Source: Gilliamella sp. wkB171 (lineage in GTDB: Bacteria; Pseudomonadota; Gammaproteobacteria; Enterobacterales; Orbaceae). Taken from it: a stretch of DNA of 43,200 nucleotides. Below, piece by piece: positions 21,612 through 30,743 of the stretch. The notes beneath the pieces were generated by a model, which ran no database searches, was not told the DNA's origin, and worked only from the letters and a program-made list of their open reading frames with translations. The stretch is taken from positions 1 to 43,200 of the forward strand of contig NZ_LYST01000019.1 in the NCBI RefSeq assembly GCF_001693755.1. The letters run 5' to 3'. Every line of letters starts with the position of its first letter. Position 1 is the stretch's first letter. Made by a program: the position numbers and the translations under genes.

Positions 21612-21731
21612 ATTAAATTTAATATTACTAAACAAAATTGGCAATAAGTTTAAATGATTCTAAGTTGCACTGCTACTTTTTTATCGCTAACATGCAACAA
21701 TAAATTAGCTTTGACTTGTCCGGGTATTATT

Positions 21732-22811
21732 ATGCAAAAAATTTTAAATGTGGCGCTAGCAAAACGTAGTTATCCTATTACTATCGGCGAAAATCTTCTA
21801 ACTCAATTTAAACATTTCAAACTCCAACCTGGTCAACGTGTATTAATCGCAACCAATGACACCATCGCCCCACTATATTTACAAACTTTAACTGATATGC
21901 TTGAAGGCAACGGTATAAAAACTGATTCTGTGATTGTGCCTGATGGTGAACAATATAAAACCATGGAAACATGGAATAAAATTCTTACCGCTTTGCTTGC
22001 CAATAATCATACCCGCAATTCCATACTAATTGCATTAGGTGGTGGCGTCATTGGTGATGTCGCTGGATTTGCTGCTTCAGCGTATCAACGAGGAATTAAG
22101 TTTATACAGGTGCCAACAACATTACTTTCGCAGGTAGATTCGTCTGTTGGTGGGAAAACCGCCATTAATCACCCTCTTGGTAAAAATATGATTGGTGCAT
22201 TTTATCAACCTCAATCAGTGGTTATCGATCTCAATTGTTTAAAAACGCTACCGCAGCGTGAATTATCAGCAGGTCTGGCTGAAGTCATTAAATATGGCAT
22301 TATTATGGATGCTGATTTTTTTAATTGGTTAGAATTGCACATTGACCAGTTACTTAAATTAGATGTCGAAGCACTCAGTTATTGCATTTATCGCTGCTGC
22401 GAACTTAAAGCACAGGTAGTTGCGGCCGATGAAACCGAACAAGATATGCGCGCGATTTTAAATCTTGGTCATACTTATGGTCATGCCATCGAGGCAGAAT
22501 TAGGTTATGGTAATTGGTTACATGGTGAAGCTGTCAGTGTCGGTATGTTAATGGCTGCTCAAACAGCTAAACTGTTGGGTAAATTTACCACCGCTGATAT
22601 TGATCGTATTAAAACACTGCTTATTAGAGCAAAACTTCCAGTTACTCGACCATCTCAAATGACGAGTGATGCTTATATTCCACACATGTTACGCGATAAA
22701 AAAGTTTTATCAGGCAAACTCAGACTTGTTATTCCGACACAAATTGGACAAGTTGAAGTGCTTGATGGCATTGATAAAAACATCGTTCTTGAATCGATAG
22801 AGCGAACTTAA
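21732..22811 (+). CDS. aroB: 3-dehydroquinate synthase
   Basis: Second step of the shikimate pathway: DAHP to 3-dehydroquinate, using NAD+ and a divalent metal. It has 359 residues (E. coli 362). Visible are the NAD-binding [34 protein letters not shown], the metal ligands in the [11 protein letters not shown] histidines and the [10 protein letters not shown] motif. The ATG at 21732 gives the normal N terminus [10 protein letters not shown] longer frame from 21654 is not conserved. It does not lie with aroK as in E. coli. Confidence 0.96.
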
Positions 22812-22908: not shown

Positions 22909-24135
22909 TTAATTGTTCGATTGTCTTTGTTTAGTAAATTTATAAATCATGTTTAACGCTAAGCCAACAAAAGCTACAGCGATTGCAATATAAAATGCAT
23001 AGGTATAACTGCCATTATTATTGACAAGGATATCCGCAGTTAACTTTGGTGCAAAAAATGCCGCTGAAGAATACCCCACAAAAATAATACCATAGTTAAC
23101 ACCTTGGTGAATCGGTCCATAATTTTCCATGACCATTGGCGGGAACACGCCCATCACACCACCAAAGCATAAACCAAGCGCGATAATTCCTATTGCAAAT
23201 CCGGCTTGTGTTGGAATAAATAAAAATGCCATAAAAGCCAAAATAATTACCGAAAAGATAATATCCAATGTTCGATTACGACCAAGTTTATCCGATACCG
23301 TTCCCCAAACAACTCGCCCAGCACAATTACTTAATGAATATAAACTCACATAAAATGCTGCTGCCACAGAAGATAGCCCAAACATGTTTTGCCCAATACT
23401 TGATGCATTTGAAGCTATCATCAACCCAGAAAATGCACCAGTACCTAACATAAAAAATATGAGGTAAAAATATGGCGTTTGTAGCATTTGTTGCCAATTT
23501 TTGTTAACAACAGGCGCATTTTGTTGGCTGTGTGCTTGAGTCCAACCTTGTGGTTGATAATTAGCAGGTGCTACCTTAATAAAGAAACTAGCAACAATAA
23601 CCACAGCTATATAGGTGCAACCTAGAATTTGGAAAGCATATAACACATCAAAGCGTTCAATCAAATGGTTACCGATTGGTGCTGATATAATTGCAGCGCC
23701 CCCCATACCTGCTGTAATAATACCTGAAGCAAGACCTTTTTTATCAGGAAATAATTTAATGGTATTACTTAAACAGCCCGAATAAGCAAGCCCTTGACCA
23801 AAGCCACTTAATAAGCCATAGGTCACATAAAGCATTAGCGGACTTGTCACATACCCCGTCAGAAAAAAGCCTAGTCCAAACAGCAAACCACCTAAAACAC
23901 TAGACCATTTAGCTAATCCTCTATCCGTTAAAAAGCCACCTAAAATCATAGGAATGGGGCCGACAGCTGAATTGATAGCAAACGCTGTCATCACCTCTGA
24001 CATACTCCAATTTTTAGCGGCACTTAAAGGACCTGCAAAAACACTAAAAGCATAAATCGCACCAGTACAAAGCAATATTGATGTTGATGCTATGAGCACA
24101 AGCCATCGATTGAGATTTCTAGTTTGTTGTTCCAT
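22909..24135 (-). CDS. OFA-type major facilitator transporter
   Basis: A 408-residue carrier with 12 hydrophobic segments, of the oxalate/formate antiporter (OFA) branch that includes OxlT and E. coli YhjX. The first helix pair ([27 protein letters not shown]) and [21 protein letters not shown] are typical. The family carries small carboxylates. Its ATG lies inside the end of the flavoreductase gene (17-bp overlap), so it is translated from the same mRNA. The likely job is uptake of the reductase's acid substrate or exchange with its reduced product. Substrate identity is inference. Confidence 0.85.
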
Positions 24136-26575
24136 GCCCAGACTCCGTTCTTGACTTGATATCTTTCAAAGCAGTTTTCCCTGCAATTCGTCCAAAGGTA
24201 AAAATATCGGTTAGTGAATTACCACCCAATCTATTACCCGCATGGATACCACCTGCTACTTCTCCTGCTGCATATAAGCCAGAAATTTTTTGTCCTGATT
24301 TATCCAAAACATGGGTTTGTGTATCGATTTTTAGTCCACCCATTGTATGATGCACCGCTGGTTTTCTTGGTGTTGCATAAAATGGAGCAACTTCTACTTT
24401 CAAATCAAAAACATCTTTACCAAATTCAGGATCATACCCAGCATCAGCATACGCATTATAGTTGGCAATAGTTTGTTTAAAAATATCAGCATCCATTCCC
24501 AATTTTTCGGCTAATTCTTCTAAAGTGTCTGCACAAAATAGTGTGCCAGCCGCAATTTGCTTATCAATTTTTTCTTGTGATGTGTTGTAAGCTGTCTTTT
24601 TGATTTCTTCATCAGCTATTAAATAAAATAATCCACCATTATCAATAGCAGCTTGTGTAAGTTTATCTCGGCTGCCATATTCATTAACAAATCGTTTTCC
24701 TTGCTTGTTAACCATGATGAAATTTTGTGGTGGAACTTGTAACCCACTAAATAATGCCCCAGTCTCTGGATCAGAAACAGGCATCATTTGTGAAAAGCCC
24801 ATACCAACCAGATCTGCACCAACACTTTGCCCTAACAAAATACCATCACCAGTAATTGCTGGAGAATTAGAGGTTTTAATATTGTCGTCAATTTCAGTCC
24901 AATAAGTGTTGTATTCTTTGAGCATTTTGGTATTAGCACCAAAACCACCCGATGCCAAAATGACAGCATCTGCTTTAACGGTAACTTTTTTACCATTTAA
25001 ACCTTGTCCAATTACCCCAGACACATGCCCTTCTTCAACAATTAACGATTTAACAGCCGTATCGGTTATAATAATTCCACCCTTATCTTCTACATATTTT
25101 TGCAATGCAGAAACATAAGCATAACCTTCACTTTTTAACGGTTTATGACCTCGACGCCATAAAGCCCCTACTGGCATAGTGACATCATGTTTATCAAATT
25201 CAACACCAATATTTTCAAGCCATTTAACCGATTCTAGCGCCTCATCAGTTAAGATTTTAACCAGATCATATTGTCCATAAATCACATTTCCTAATTGGTC
25301 AGTACGCTTACCGCCAAGATAGGTTTGAATACGATGAAGTAGTGCCGAATCAAATAGGTAACCGGTTTTACCTTTATTTTCTGATAAATAATCATTAATT
25401 TGCTGTTTTAAGCTTCTAAAATCTTGCAAATATTCAGGATCAATCACCGACTCATCAATTGCTACTATTTCAGATAAAGTATGGCTTTCGCCCGCGATAG
25501 CATCGAAAGTATTTTGCCATTTAGGATTGGCGGCATTCATTGGCCCACCTGTACGGACAGTATTACCACCAACTGCTGGAAATTTTTCAACAACAACAAC
25601 GCGCTTGCCTTCTTGTAAAATACTTGCCGCGGCTGATAATCCTGCACCACCAGCACCAACCACAACGACATCTGTTACATATTGCGCATCGCTATTATCA
25701 AGCGCGCTTGGTGCTTTTGGTCTTTTTCTTAATACATCAGGATTAGCACCTGCCATTTTAATGGCTTTTGCCACACCATCAATAACACCATTACTTGTAA
25801 CCGATGCACCAGATATCAAATCGACATTCAGTGTCTGACCTTCAAGGATTTGAGATGGAATACGTTTAAACACAACGTCAGCAATACCTTCTGACTCGCC
25901 TTCGGTATCAATATCAATCGATTCAATGCGGTCAGTTGATAAAGTAACAACCATAGGTAAATCGCCATTATGACCCGGTGCTGTTACACAATATTTACCA
26001 GGTTCATACGAGATTTCTTCCGGTACATTAAGTAAATTGACAACTTGAGTAAATCGCAAAAAACGTAAAAAACAGCTTTCTAAAAAATCGACTGTTCTTT
26101 CTGATTTAAGATTACCTTGCTCATCAAAAGCTTGATGGGCTCGACCCAGTAAAAATTCAGAGCCCGGCATAACTGTTGCATTAACCCCTGGCGCATCAAG
26201 GATTTGACGCAAATGTAATTGTGCTCGAGAGGAGCCTTGTACATCATAAGATGCACCAACAATCATCACTGGTTTACCATCAAACGGATGCAAATTAAAT
26301 GATAACCATTCAATGATACTTTTTAAGGCCGATGGAATTGAGTGATTATGCTCTGGCGTGGCAAGAATAACACCATCTGCTTGAATAATTTTATTATTAA
26401 AATTCTGAATGATAGGACTATTAGATTGGTCATCTGACTCATTAAACATTGGAACGTCAGTCAACTCTAATATTTCAATTTCGGCTTTATGACTAAAATG
26501 TTTTTGCATAAATTGCAATAACATACGGTTATAAGATTCTTGAGCATTTGTTCCTACTATACCAATAAATTTCAT
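24119..26575 (-). CDS. three-domain flavoreductase (fumarate-reductase-like, covalent FMN)
   Basis: An 818-residue soluble protein without signal peptide. Residues 1-185 are an NAD(P)H-dependent FMN_red domain ([33 protein letters not shown]). Residues about 190-275 are an FMN_bind domain whose SGASVTS motif makes Thr260 the expected site of covalent FMN attachment. Residues 300-805 are a fumarate-reductase/flavocytochrome c FAD domain ([15 protein letters not shown]). The proton-donor Arg636 (SRDKLT), HHTMGG (742-747) and Arg782 (GNRLGG) match Shewanella Fcc3, but the fumarate-binding His is Met598 (QMMP) and the TEAVRG loop is absent. A monocarboxylic 2-enoate such as acrylate or cinnamate is more likely than fumarate. 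The same domain order is known from Vibrio NADH:acrylate and cinnamate reductases. The start overlaps the previous stop (ATGA). Confidence 0.88.
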
Positions 26576-27198
26576 AACGATGCTCCTTCTTCTGCGGCCT
26601 GTTTCCAACTAAATTTCTTATTTTGATCTGTATTAATTTTGGCTGTTTTGAGTAATTGATTAGTAATGGATACAAATAATAAAAATTCATCAAAGCATTC
26701 ATCTAACTCTTTAACTTTATCAGCATAAACAAGATTACCTTGATCATCAAAAGCCTGTAACGACTGCCCTAATAAAAACTCCGAGCTTGGCATAATTCGT
26801 GCTTTTAATTCTGGCGCATCCAAAATTTGGCGTAAATGAGCCTGAGCCCTTGATGAACCCAACATACCATGTGAAGCACCGACAATCATTACACATTTAT
26901 TAATCAGAGGGCGGGTAGTATAAGACAACCACTCAATAACACTTTTCAAAGCAGCGGTAATGGAATGATCATATTCGGGAGTAGCAATAATCACACCATC
27001 TGCGGCTAGTATTTTATCCGATAGCTCTTTTACTGCTGCTGGCGGAGTTTTATCCTTAGGTTCATTAAATGCTGGTAATGATTTAATTTCACAGACCTCA
27101 ATTTCTGCTTTCTCGGCAAAATGCGTTCGCATAAAATGCAGTAATTTTCTATTAGTAGAACGATCAGAATTCGTTCCGACTATAGCAACAAATTTCAC
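26572..27198 (-). CDS. NAD(P)H-dependent FMN reductase-like subunit
   Basis: A 208-residue FMN_red-family flavoprotein (flavodoxin-like fold) with FMN-binding [13 protein letters not shown] (8-20) and [19 protein letters not shown]. It is a clear paralogue of the N-terminal domain of the next gene: [15 protein letters not shown] is identical except one position, and the start MKF..IVGTN matches. It uses a GTG start with GTGAGGT upstream, and its stop overlaps the next ATG by 4 bp, so the two proteins are translationally coupled and probably form a heterodimer. In the Vibrio cinnamate reductase a small subunit of this kind is reported to accompany the large one. Confidence 0.88.
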
Positions 27199-27393
27199 TT
27201 TAAAACCTCACTTAGTACCTTGCGGCACAATTTTGTTAATATTTAATTTTCGTAATACAAATTCTTTAGCTAATCACACAAAATGGTAGAATAAGTTCTT
27301 GTTATATTAATTATGTTATTTGTTGTGCAATATGATTTGTTATCTAGTGTAAAATAGAAAAAAATATTTGTGAAATAGCTGATTAATTATGGA

Positions 27394-27415
27394 GTTATAA
27401 CTAATTTGTTATAAC
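27394..27415 (+). promoter_or_regulatory. paired GTTATAAC palindromes, possible operator
   Basis: Two identical 8-bp palindromes GTTATAAC (27394-27401 and 27408-27415) are spaced 14 bp apart, ending 25 bp before the LysR ATG. The position, just upstream of the regulator gene in the divergent region, suits an autoregulatory site. Function is inferred from symmetry and place. Confidence 0.4.
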
Positions 27416-27440
27416 CTTAAAAAGGATGAGAACAAGCGGA

Positions 27441-28367
27441 ATGGCTAAAATTAATTCACTAATAATGCTGCAATATATTGATGTTTTAGTTAAGCATGGT
27501 AATTATACCAAAGCAGCACAAAACCTTTATATCTCGCAATCTTACCTAACTCAAACCATAAAAAAAATTGAAAATGAACTAGGCATTGAAATCATCAATC
27601 GACAAACCGTCCCATTACAGTTAACCGAAGCAGGAAAAATTTATTATGAATACCTCACATCGTTAGTCAACAAACAGGAACAGTTTAGAAAAAAAATCCA
27701 AAAATATACTGATACTAACTACACCGCAATTCAAATCGGTGTATTACCAAGCTTAGGAACCTACTTATTACCCCTAGTTTTACCTGCTTTTATGCAAAAA
27801 TATCCCAATATTAAAATCGAATTACATGAATATATGCCCAAAAATAGTGAAGAAAAAACCATTAACCAAACTCTCGATTTTTTTATTGGGCAAAATCCTG
27901 AAACAATATCCCCTAACTTAATTAGTCATAAATGTGGTAAACATCATTATTATGCACTTATACCAGAAAGCTCTAAACTCTATCGAAAAAAAACAAATAA
28001 TATTGAATGTAATCATTCTTTTATAAAAAAACTATTGCAAGAAAAGCTTATTCTAACGTCTCACGGCTCAGGTATTCGACAACAAATTGAATACCTCATT
28101 ACAAAATATAAGATTAAACCGAATATCGTAATTGAAAGCAGTAATATTTTTACCCTTGTCGAATTAGCGAAAAAAGGAATGGGAGTGACGTTTATTCCTG
28201 AAAGCGTCAGTATCTGCGGAAAAACGGGTGATTTAGCATATAATTTGATCCCCTTACCTTTAGAATTCATCTCGTTAAGTTATTTCATTGCATATTCAGC
28301 CAATAAAATGCTTAGCGTTGCTGAAAAAGAATTCATCAACCTTTTCGTCTCTTCTTTTAATAAATAA
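27441..28367 (+). CDS. LysR-family transcriptional regulator
   Basis: About 308 residues. The N-terminal winged helix-turn-helix (YIDVLVKHGNYTKAAQNLYISQSYLTQTIKKIENELG) is followed by a substrate-binding domain (IQIGVLPSLGTYLLPLVLPAFMQKYPNIKIEL). It is divergent from the flavoreductase/transporter operon, the usual LysR arrangement, so it probably controls that operon in response to the enoate or a related acid. The ATG at 27441 is preferred. An ATG at 27426 directly abuts the AAAGG and leaves no Shine-Dalgarno spacing. Confidence 0.9.
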   Translation: MAKINSLIMLQYIDVLVKHGNYTKAAQNLYISQSYLTQTIKKIENELGIEIINRQTVPLQLTEAGKIYYEYLTSLVNKQEQFRKKIQKYTDTNYTAIQIGVLPSLGTYLLPLVLPAFMQKYPNIKIELHEYMPKNSEEKTINQTLDFFIGQNPETISPNLISHKCGKHHYYALIPESSKLYRKKTNNIECNHSFIKKLLQEKLILTSHGSGIRQQIEYLITKYKIKPNIVIESSNIFTLVELAKKGMGVTFIPESVSICGKTGDLAYNLIPLPLEFISLSYFIAYSANKMLSVAEKEFINLFVSSFNK

Positions 28368-28418
28368 TGCAAAGATGAAAACAAAACGAGTGTTCACGCG
28401 GTAACATCATATAAATAT

Positions 28419-29339
28419 CTAGATCAATAAACCATTAGAACCAGCATATTCATGATTTTTGGTGATAACTATCCCTTCGATATGGTCAATTTTATTTATT
28501 TGCTTAATCACCTGTTCAGCAGAATAACCATATAATTGTGTAGTCCATATTTCGCCATCTATGGCATGCTCAGTCACAATAGTAATACTTTCAATATCGG
28601 TTTCAACAGGATAACCTGTTTGACTATCAAAAATATGATGATAGGTTTTACCATTATAGTTAAATGTTCTTTCATAAATACCAGAAGTCACCACTGATTG
28701 ATTTTGAATCTTCAAAACAGTAATAACATTACCTCTGCTCAAAAAGGGATTTTGGATGCCTACTCGCCAATACCCATCATCATGAAAAGGACAATTCCCA
28801 AATGTTAATACATTTCCACCTAAATCAATATACGCTGCGTGAGCATTTTGTTGTTTAAAAAATTCAATAACTTTATCAGCAAAATAACCTTTGGCTAACG
28901 CACCTAAATCGATTGCCATTCCAGAATGCTTTAACAACACGGATAAATTATCTTCATCTAAAAGAATATCATTAGGGTTAATGAGTGTTAAAAGCTGATT
29001 GATTTCTGAAACAGAAGGATATCTAGCATCACTAAAACCAACCCGCCACGCTTGAATAAGTGGTCCTATTGCAATATTTAAAAAACTATTTTTTATTAAA
29101 CTCTGAGTTTTACCTATTTTTATTAATCTAAAAAGATCAGATTGCAGTTTTACGGGTTTAATACCCGCATTAAGATTAACTTGCATTAATTGAGAATCTA
29201 AGCGATTAGCACTAAAGCGCTGTTCGTAGTCGATTAACATCTTTTGAGCTTGATTCAATAAGTGTTCAACCTCATCATGTTCTAGCCATATTTGAATCTT
29301 TGTGCCCATCAAATTAAGCAAGCGCTTACCTTGGTTCAT
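28419..29339 (-). CDS. apbE: FAD:protein FMN transferase, cytoplasmic ApbE type
   Basis: Attaches FMN from FAD to a threonine of target proteins. It has 306 residues. Typical are MGTKIQIWL at the start, RFSANRLDSQLMQVN, AIDLGALAKGYFAD (FAD/Mg site), YIDLGGNVLTFG, SVVTSGIYERTF and HHIFDSQTGYPVETD. There is no signal peptide or lipobox, unlike periplasmic E. coli ApbE, so it acts in the cytoplasm. The obvious client is the FMN_bind domain of the nearby soluble flavoreductase. It lies just beyond the LysR gene, convergent with it, in its own unit. Confidence 0.92.
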   Translation of the reverse strand: MNQGKRLLNLMGTKIQIWLEHDEVEHLLNQAQKMLIDYEQRFSANRLDSQLMQVNLNAGIKPVKLQSDLFRLIKIGKTQSLIKNSFLNIAIGPLIQAWRVGFSDARYPSVSEINQLLTLINPNDILLDEDNLSVLLKHSGMAIDLGALAKGYFADKVIEFFKQQNAHAAYIDLGGNVLTFGNCPFHDDGYWRVGIQNPFLSRGNVITVLKIQNQSVVTSGIYERTFNYNGKTYHHIFDSQTGYPVETDIESITIVTEHAIDGEIWTTQLYGYSAEQVIKQINKIDHIEGIVITKNHEYAGSNGLLI

Positions 29340-29657: not shown

Positions 29658-30743
29658 ATGTTAAAAGACACACTGAATAATGTTCGAATTCGAGATGAAC
29701 ACATGCTAATTACACCTGATGAAATAAAAAAACTTTATCCATTATCAAGTGAGTTAGAAAAGCAAATTAGTTTATCTAGACAAACTGTCGTTGATATTTT
29801 AGAACGCCGCGATCACCGGCTACTTGTTGTTTGTGGCCCTTGCTCAATTCATGATACCGATGCTGCAATTGAGTATGCTCATCGATTAAAAAAACTTTCA
29901 GATGAAGTAAAAGATAATCTATTTATTGTGATGCGTGTTTATTTTGAAAAACCAAGAACCACCGTTGGTTGGAAAGGCATGATTAACGATCCACATATGG
30001 ATAGTTCATTTGATATTGAATATGGTCTAAAAAAAGCACGAAAATTATTACTGGATATCGCACAAATTGGCTTGCCAATGGCAACAGAAGCATTAGATCC
30101 TAACACGCCACAGTATATCGGTGATTTAATTAGTTGGTCTGCTATCGGCGCTAGAACCACTGAATCACAAACACATCGAGAAATGGCTTCTGGATTATCG
30201 ATGCCAGTTGGTTTTAAAAATGGAACAGATGGCAGTTTAGATGTTGCAATCAATGCGATGAAATCAGCGTCTATGGCACATCGTTTTGTTGGTATCAATC
30301 AACAAGGGCAAGTTACTGTCCTACAGACAATGGGCAATCCACACGGACATGTTATTTTACGTGGTGGAAAAACACCAAACTATGATGCTCAAAACGTATC
30401 ATTATGTGAAATTCAAATGAAAAAAGCTGGTTTAGTACCAAATTTAATGATTGATTGTAGCCATGCTAATTCCAATAAAGATTATCGTAATCAACCAATT
30501 GTAGCTAATTCAATTATTGAGCAAATTGAGCACGGTAACAATTCAATTATTGGGGTTATGATTGAAAGTAACTTATTTGAAGGTAATCAATCGTCAGAAC
30601 AACCAAAAGAAAACTTTAAATATGGTGTATCGGTTACTGATGCTTGTATTAATTGGGACAGCACTGATGAGTTATTACGAAAAATGAATAGCTTGTTAGC
30701 TGAGCCTTTATTAAAAAGACAACAACAATCAATAACCGCTTAA
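29658..30743 (+). CDS. aroF: DAHP synthase, tyrosine-sensitive isozyme
   Basis: First step of aromatic amino acid synthesis: phosphoenolpyruvate plus erythrose 4-phosphate to DAHP. It has 361 residues. The N terminus LNNVRI, with Asn8, and SAIGARTTESQTHREMASGLSMPVGFKNGTDGS match AroF more closely than AroG or AroH. GPCSIHD holds a catalytic Cys (metal ligand), and IDCSHANSNKDY is the AroF-type version of the C-terminal motif. TyrR boxes upstream agree with the AroF assignment. Confidence 0.93.
   Translation: MLKDTLNNVRIRDEHMLITPDEIKKLYPLSSELEKQISLSRQTVVDILERRDHRLLVVCGPCSIHDTDAAIEYAHRLKKLSDEVKDNLFIVMRVYFEKPRTTVGWKGMINDPHMDSSFDIEYGLKKARKLLLDIAQIGLPMATEALDPNTPQYIGDLISWSAIGARTTESQTHREMASGLSMPVGFKNGTDGSLDVAINAMKSASMAHRFVGINQQGQVTVLQTMGNPHGHVILRGGKTPNYDAQNVSLCEIQMKKAGLVPNLMIDCSHANSNKDYRNQPIVANSIIEQIEHGNNSIIGVMIESNLFEGNQSSEQPKENFKYGVSVTDACINWDSTDELLRKMNSLLAEPLLKRQQQSITA

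Follow-up and report, generated by a model that had tools for sequence, protein, structure and literature searches.

A predicted hydroxycinnamate reductase cassette in the bee gut symbiont Gilliamella, apparently acquired from Lactobacillales

Introduction

Which unsaturated acid is reduced by the flavoenzyme encoded beside aroB in Gilliamella sp. wkB171, and how did its genes come to lie there? The stretch that we analysed (43,200 nucleotides, hereafter the window) belongs to contig C19 (NZ_LYST01000019.1) of a 2.67-Mb Gilliamella (Orbaceae) genome and carries a five-gene cassette at positions 22909-29339. A preliminary description, made from the letters alone, read the cassette as a self-contained module for the NAD(P)H-driven reduction of an enoate, probably of plant phenolic acids. 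The homology, gene conservation and pocket residues reported here make it likely that the system is a cytoplasmic NADH:(hydroxy)cinnamate reductase cassette of the HcrAB/CrdAB type that came from a donor in the Lactobacillales, on the Enterococcus side. Lactic acid bacteria are already known to have enzymes of this type.

Results

The two enzyme genes lie on the reverse strand. The small FMN_red subunit, which is HcrA/CrdA-like, is encoded at 26572..27198 (208 aa, GTG start, Pfam FMN_red 1.4e-36, with a weaker flavodoxin-fold match besides). The HcrB/CrdB-like large subunit follows at 24119..26575 (818 aa from an ATG; in the open reading frame listing the frame reaches 829 aa from an upstream TTG). 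Pfam divides the large protein into FMN_red (residues 1-148), FMN_bind (201-273) and FAD_binding_2 (302-788), which would serve as NADH input, holder of the covalent FMN and enoate site, respectively. The small and large genes overlap by 4 bp (ATGA), and the large gene overlaps head to tail by 17 bp with the gene of an MFS carrier (22909..24135, reverse strand, 408 aa). A divergent LysR-type regulator, HcrR-like, occupies 27426..28367 on the forward strand (Pfam HTH_1 and LysR_substrate), 227 bp from the small gene. Beyond it lies the gene of an ApbE FAD:protein FMN transferase (28419..29339, reverse strand, 306 aa, Pfam 4.3e-71), whose closest PDB match is 7esa at 1.7e-61, the second best reaching 5.8e-37. 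Since the ApbE domain spans residues 11-289 of the 306 (Pfam) and thus starts too near the N-terminus for a signal peptide to precede it, the transferase is probably cytoplasmic. All five reading frames are intact at these coordinates. The anatomy given in the preliminary description, a LysR gene facing an overlapping operon of small FMN_red protein, three-domain flavoreductase and carrier with a cytoplasmic ApbE next door, is thus borne out by the frames and by the domain search of the 818- and 208-residue proteins.

The closest characterised gene arrangement is that of Lactiplantibacillus plantarum WCFS1, in which hcrR, hcrA, hcrB and hcrC follow one another and encode 315, 204, 812 and 186 aa (PMC11126511). 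Two Lactiplantibacillus loci in our set (L138, L139) have a LysR of 315 aa, a small subunit of 204 aa, a large subunit of 812 aa and an extra gene of 186 aa in the same order, the small and large lengths being counted, in longer frames, from an internal methionine (for the large subunit, the one that matches the window's start). The large subunit of the window is 70-71%, its small subunit 66-69% and its LysR 46-48% identical to those of L136, L138 and L139, and a full-length match with 70-73% identity is found in 14 of 21 Lactiplantibacillus genomes. The hcrC-type gene after the large subunit (L136:8390-8998, L138:8469-9029; 186-202 aa) matches no Pfam family, and the position of the LysR gene relative to hcrB is at odds with the wording of one review. 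The window cassette resembles HcrRABC in its small FMN_red protein and three-domain large subunit, in its linked LysR and in the pocket letters at named sites. It differs in adding ApbE and the MFS carrier, in having no hcrC-type gene after the large subunit and in its gammaproteobacterial host. By analogy with this system, we infer activity on hydroxycinnamates.

The motif for covalent flavin attachment is preserved as D252-L-I-S-G-A-S258 in FMN_bind (25802..25822, reverse strand). Among 19 aligned proteins, the window's included, D252, S255, G256, A257 and S258 are invariant and the two x positions vary. We take Dxx[S/T]GA[S/T] to be the flavinylation motif and S258 to be the expected FMN attachment site. 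The genome has two ApbE genes and two FMN_bind proteins, with one ApbE gene near each of the latter.

The substrate-pocket segment (residues 593-640; 24656..24799, reverse strand) was delimited by PDB and family alignments. PDB chains of Shewanella flavocytochrome c3 (Fcc3) served as reference, several residues being named in PDB titles. In the window protein, Fcc3 H365, T377, E378 and R381 are replaced by M598, S610, G611 and P615, and R402, H504 and R544 are retained as R636, H742 and R782. M598 and G611 are common to the Lactiplantibacillus rows (n=5) and the Vibrio FMN_red-type rows (n=12, 11 genomes). Judged from these alignments, the enzyme keeps the proton donor and the site for the first carboxylate and has lost that for the second, the pattern expected of a mono-carboxylate enoate reductase. 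The predicted structure of the large protein has a mean predicted local distance difference test score (pLDDT) of 75.9; its pocket-region segments 592-616, 740-745 and 773-785 fall below 50, so the pocket could not be modelled from it. The matches to its fold are of the urocanate/fumarate reductase fold, the best being the urocanate reductase 6t85, and flavocytochrome c3 is among the others.

The same pocket bears on the reading of the enzyme as a second NADH:fumarate reductase. That reading would agree with the flavocytochrome c3 fold matches and with a score above the cut-off of the flavocytochrome c model TIGR01813 (345.6 vs 285.45 bits), a model that is blind to substrate. However, M598 and G611 stand where a dicarboxylate enzyme has H365 and E378, and an OYE-type fumarate reductase (Frd) with an adjoining ApbE is encoded elsewhere in the genome. 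This protein, on contig C8 (L002, L090), is 923 aa long and retains the Fcc3-type H and E; its FMN_bind domain was found by search, and its plan of OYE, FMN_bind and FAD_binding_2 was assigned by length and eye. From its sequence, it is of the soluble NADH:fumarate reductase (Klebsiella) type. It shares with the window enzyme an ApbE-linked FMN_bind and FAD_binding_2 reductase half, and differs from it in the OYE-like input domain and the dicarboxylate-binding H/E. One study reports OYE-type Frd in all 95 of its Gilliamella genomes (PMC11325843). On the pocket residues and the separate Frd we reject a fumarate reductase, which we regard as extremely improbable.

Vibrio species offer two further points of reference. 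Among 227 Vibrio genomes searched at E <= 1e-150, 11 have a full-length FMN_red-type match of 67-68% identity. In 24, of which 3 also have the FMN_red type, a frame of 913-1053 aa matches from beyond residue 170 with 55-57% identity. We take the former to follow the plan of V. ruber CrdAB and the latter that of V. harveyi ARD. CrdAB is reportedly a heterodimer in which both chains are FMN_red proteins and the larger one also has FMN_bind and FAD_binding_2, and ARD is said to be one polypeptide whose input domain is OYE-like. The gene pair and domains of the window match CrdAB. In two Vibrio loci (L056, L140), the ApbE gene comes after LysR and shares its strand, and no window-like MFS gene was found nearby. 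In another Vibrio genome (G253, C1:428657-430925), the large gene of FMN_red type is split between two neighbouring frames (407 and 445 aa), because the copy is broken or the assembly is wrong.

The ARD plan shares the FMN_bind and FAD_binding_2 catalytic half with the window enzyme, and ApbE stands beside ARD-plan genes in L115, L117 and L141. It differs in its OYE-like input domain in the single chain and in its pocket letters. The Vibrio OYE-type rows (4 in all, 3 of them distinct) differ from the FMN_red-type rows at three sites: GGWVN/GGP[MI]N, LTGLIV/FSGLQV and RRAHKP/RRGHKP. The window protein has the FMN_red-type letters (GGP[MI]N, FSGLQV, RRGHKP) at all three, and an OYE-type protein of S. 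epidermidis has mixed letters there. Pfam finds no OYE domain (PF00724, Oxidored_FMN) in the window large protein, and finds one in a second Gilliamella homologue. An NADH:acrylate reductase that detoxifies acrylate in the manner of V. harveyi ARD would be in keeping with the 55-57% identity of the FMN_bind and FAD halves to Vibrio proteins of about 1000 aa, which fit the ARD plan, but the missing OYE domain and the letters at the three sites speak against it. We reject this reading on domain plan and consider it very improbable. The Vibrio likeness drawn in the preliminary description holds for the cinnamate (Crd/Hcr) plan and fails for the acrylate plan.

The carrier had been described as OFA-type. 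It does belong to the OFA superfamily, but it passes only the cut-off of NF049980, the model of the SfMCT L-lactate transporter (421.4 bits, cut-off 320), and stays below those of TIGR00890 (232.7 bits, cut-off 374.85) and TIGR04259 (162.6 bits, cut-off 335). Four relatives from Lactiplantibacillus, Enterococcus, Companilactobacillus and Streptococcus likewise pass only the SfMCT cut-off, and the best PDB match is SfMCT (6g9x, 2.3e-50) as against OxlT (8hpj, 1e-30). An oxalate:formate antiporter is therefore rejected on the curated cut-offs. We propose that this SfMCT-like carrier imports hydroxycinnamates.

This assignment touches on a published puzzle. Of the 95 Gilliamella genomes in a 2024 survey, 32 are reported to have oxlT but no genes of oxalate metabolism, and every one of these came from A. 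mellifera (PMC11325843). In 35 Gilliamella species genomes, we find no gene over the OFA cut-off; the best OFA scores (228-234 bits) are those of the cassette carriers of 11 genomes, and the next best is 108 bits. Since the carrier is SfMCT-type, the published Gilliamella "oxlT" may, to judge from these scores, be the cassette MFS gene. Such a re-reading offers an answer to the puzzle of oxlT without oxalate metabolism.

Between the divergent genes lies a predicted LysR operator, the palindrome TTATAAC-AAATTA-GTTATAA (27395..27414), identified by genome scan and locus comparison. It is the sole place in its own genome with 0-1 mismatches to the operator consensus; a second near-match, with 2 mismatches, lies on contig C55 inside a pyridine-nucleotide oxidoreductase frame. 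We fetched 80 loci by similarity, in 57 of which a LysR gene adjoins the small gene and in 23 of which it does not. The operator core ATAACAAAT-N3-TTAT is exact in 46 of the 57 LysR-linked loci and present with at most 1 mismatch in 51; it is found in 3 of 285 shuffled regions and in none of the 23 loci without an adjacent LysR. The pattern was derived from sequences that include 14 of the tested loci, and many loci are close relatives, so that the counts overstate independence. A sounder test is the difference between the loci that have an adjacent LysR and those that do not. The operator is conserved from Clostridium to Vibrio.

On the reverse strand, a conserved block TTCACA-N17-TACACT (27344..27376; scan match 27374-27346) may be the promoter of the reductase operon. 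TTCACA-N17-TANACT is present in 17 of the 57 LysR-linked loci (8/8 Gilliamella, 5/5 Enterococcus and 4/5 Companilactobacillus) and in none of the 23 loci without LysR, and visual inspection shows it in Lactiplantibacillus L136 and L138 as well. Since promoter and terminator scans of the region show no excess over shuffles, the promoter is put forward on its conservation. No FNR-like site of the pattern TTGAY-N4-RTCAA occurs in the 18 intergenic regions examined.

The five genes keep the same order and orientation in 14 of the 80 loci: 7/8 in Gilliamella, 5/5 in Enterococcus (L009, L011, L012, L066, L069; the MFS gene of L012 is in two frames) and 2/5 in Companilactobacillus (L067, L071). In these Enterococcus and Companilactobacillus cassettes, the large subunit is 74-84% identical to the window's, the operator core is present with at most 1 mismatch in 5 of 7 and the promoter block in 7 of 7. 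To our knowledge, no member of this group has been characterised. ApbE is part of the unit, because it holds the same place in all 5 Enterococcus loci. A chance neighbourhood is rejected, as the cassette is conserved across genera. With operator and promoter block conserved across loci, the regulatory DNA also seems to have travelled with the genes.

Outside the cassette lie aroB (3-dehydroquinate synthase, 21654..22811, forward strand, Pfam) and a DAHP-synthase gene, here called aroF (29658..30743, forward strand, Pfam). Compared with E. termitis, C. jidongensis and Vibrio HA2012, the reductase shows 84, 75 and 68% identity, whereas for the adjacent aroB the values against these genomes are 38, 37 and 56%. 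The reductase is present in 13 of 35 Gilliamella species genomes at >=89% identity, beside aroB in all 13, the second flank being also visible in the window and 9 more. In 20 of the 22 non-carriers, aroB and aroF are neighbours without a cassette, about 0.26-1.4 kb apart; of the other two, one has other genes after aroB and one ends its contig there. We therefore reject a native, vertically inherited gene on the inverted identities and the cassette-free sites. The operon does not look native to the genus, and the cassette looks to have been acquired as one unit from Lactobacillales, very probably, by its sequence relationships, from enterococcus-like bacteria.

In the tree that we rely on, a mixture-model tree of 31 hand-chosen rows, 8 Gilliamella and 3 enterococci group together (98/93) within the Lactobacillales set. 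A quick tree of 107 rows carries long-branch warnings and omits 9 of the 80 fetched loci (8 partial matches and L065, whose large gene is in several pieces). When cassette presence is mapped on a protein tree of aroB+aroF, it requires 5 changes; the tree covers 30 of the 35 Gilliamella genomes and leaves out G010, G016, G023, G030 and G031, for which the stretches analysed do not contain both genes. This fits one gain with several losses, or spread through the shared flanks. One carrier, G033, has a second aroB-aroF copy that is cassette-free (C17, C1; L172, L175); its bin contamination is given as 5, and it is probably a mixed bin of two strains.

Relatives of the enzyme show other domain arrangements. 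Two OYE-type Gilliamella proteins of 1003-1011 aa (L104:4999-8034 in G010 and L105:4949-7960 in G004; the Pfam scan covered L104) have a catalytic half 57-58% identical to the window's. Both thus join the same catalytic half to another NADH-input domain, and in L105 ApbE follows the gene. A Lactobacillus amylolyticus plasmid (L118:6016-7902) encodes a 628-aa protein of FMN_bind and FAD_binding_2 without an input domain, and its place inside the three-domain clade, on a long branch of the quick tree, suggests loss of FMN_red. Of 913 matching plasmid records, none covers 80% of the query in one place as a full three-domain copy would. In Lactiplantibacillus daowaiensis, the domain order is FMN_red-FAD-FMN_bind in L120:11467-13830 and FMN_bind-FAD-FMN_red in L121:4504-6801. 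In Tetragenococcus halophilus (L078:6585-7859), an FMN_red pair resembling HcrA and the N-terminal part of HcrB is found, whose second protein has PAS_10 in place of the reductase part (Pfam, run on L078), and partial matches in L076, L077, L079 and L082 are laid out alike. Such a pair is possibly a redox or ligand sensor built from the same input pair.

Discussion

The arrangement of genes and residues suggests how the cassette could work. The MFS carrier would import cinnamates such as p-coumarate, ferulate and caffeate together with H+. LysR, bound at TTATAAC-N6-GTTATAA, would sense them and switch on the promoter. The paired FMN_red domains would accept hydride from NADH, and electrons would run through the FMN attached by ApbE to S258 and on to FAD. 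FADH2, with R636 as the acid, would then reduce the side-chain double bond to give a phenylpropionate, which would leave the cell, with NAD+ regenerated. The steps beyond the anatomy are modelled on HcrAB and flavocytochrome c3, and it is by this analogy that we infer the substrate, the NADH preference, the direction of transport, the activation by LysR and the role as electron sink.

The cassette might belong to the same enzyme class and yet act mainly on a different aryl- or alkyl-acrylate, for instance urocanate, sorbate or some other plant enoate, and on cinnamates only as a side activity. The FAD_binding_2 fold also serves urocanate reductase, which supplies the best fold match, and the carrier fits a lactate/monocarboxylate model. 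In addition, three input arrangements are found joined to this catalytic half, so the family may exceed cinnamates. Set against these points are an identity of 70-71% to hcrB-type loci, agreement with them in the pocket letters at named sites, and a linked regulator and small-large gene order that are those of hcr. We consider another main substrate improbable, and prefer hydroxycinnamates.

Several observations weigh against the hydroxycinnamate reading or parts of it. The assignment of L138 and L139 as hcrRABC-type loci rests on gene order and length, and hcrB-like genes do not always confer the reducing phenotype, according to one study (PMC10295242). The TIGR01813 score given above does not distinguish between substrates. 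Six of the 57 LysR-linked loci (4 Companilactobacillus, 1 Enterococcus and 1 firmicute) have no operator. The model that the carrier passes is named for L-lactate, and the MFS gene is broken, in pieces or a fragment, in 2 of the 13 carriers (G013, L165; G029, L106), in which the other cassette genes still give long matches. Because of these breaks, the MFS carrier may be dispensable, or another carrier may serve. As to the donor, an Enterococcus clade without Gilliamella inside it is not rejected by the approximately unbiased (AU) test (p 0.077). Finally, dietary p-coumarate left Gilliamella abundance unchanged in Apis cerana, as reported in one study (PMC13115751).

The host context nevertheless fits phenolic-acid reduction. 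In one study, no phenolic acid of white-clover pollen was more concentrated than p-coumaric acid, of which adult bees contained little (PMC11421904). Cytochrome bd is described as the sole terminal enzyme of Gilliamella that is linked to quinol, and the bacterium also has a soluble Frd and ferments (PMC11325843).

What the bacterium gains from the reaction is a separate matter. There is a substantial chance, though short of an even one, that the benefit lies in the removal of toxic phenolic acids and not in an electron sink. The authors of the V. ruber work are said to have favoured protection. The cassette has a dedicated LysR, and cinnamates are antimicrobial (PMC10295242). On the other side, a further NADH sink would have value, since cytochrome bd is the sole quinol-linked terminal enzyme. 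The two benefits are compatible.

Among the listed titles and abstract openings from the CC-licensed PMC literature, we found no report of cinnamate reduction by Gilliamella. As far as that literature goes, the cross-phylum transfer of a self-regulated cassette to a fixed site in a bee symbiont, its conserved operator and the likely re-reading of oxlT are new. The preliminary reading of a self-contained enoate-reductase module gains support from the identity to hcrB-type proteins, the conservation of the cassette and the pocket residues. A wider scenario is speculative and rather unlikely as a whole: a single cross-phylum transfer would have given Gilliamella a portable unit for using pollen hydroxycinnamates as electron acceptors, carriers would alter the chemical defence of their host, and the "oxlT" confined to A. 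mellifera would be the carrier of this unit.

In our analysis, a generic "flavocytochrome c" and "OFA transporter" of a model gut symbiont join in a single function that can be tested, the reduction of phenolic acids. With the insertion site, carriers and non-carriers named, a clean comparison is possible. p-Coumarate is reported to raise the expression of detoxification genes in bees (PMC13115751). If the reading is true, removal of p-coumarate by carrier strains could change the chemical defence of the bee host.

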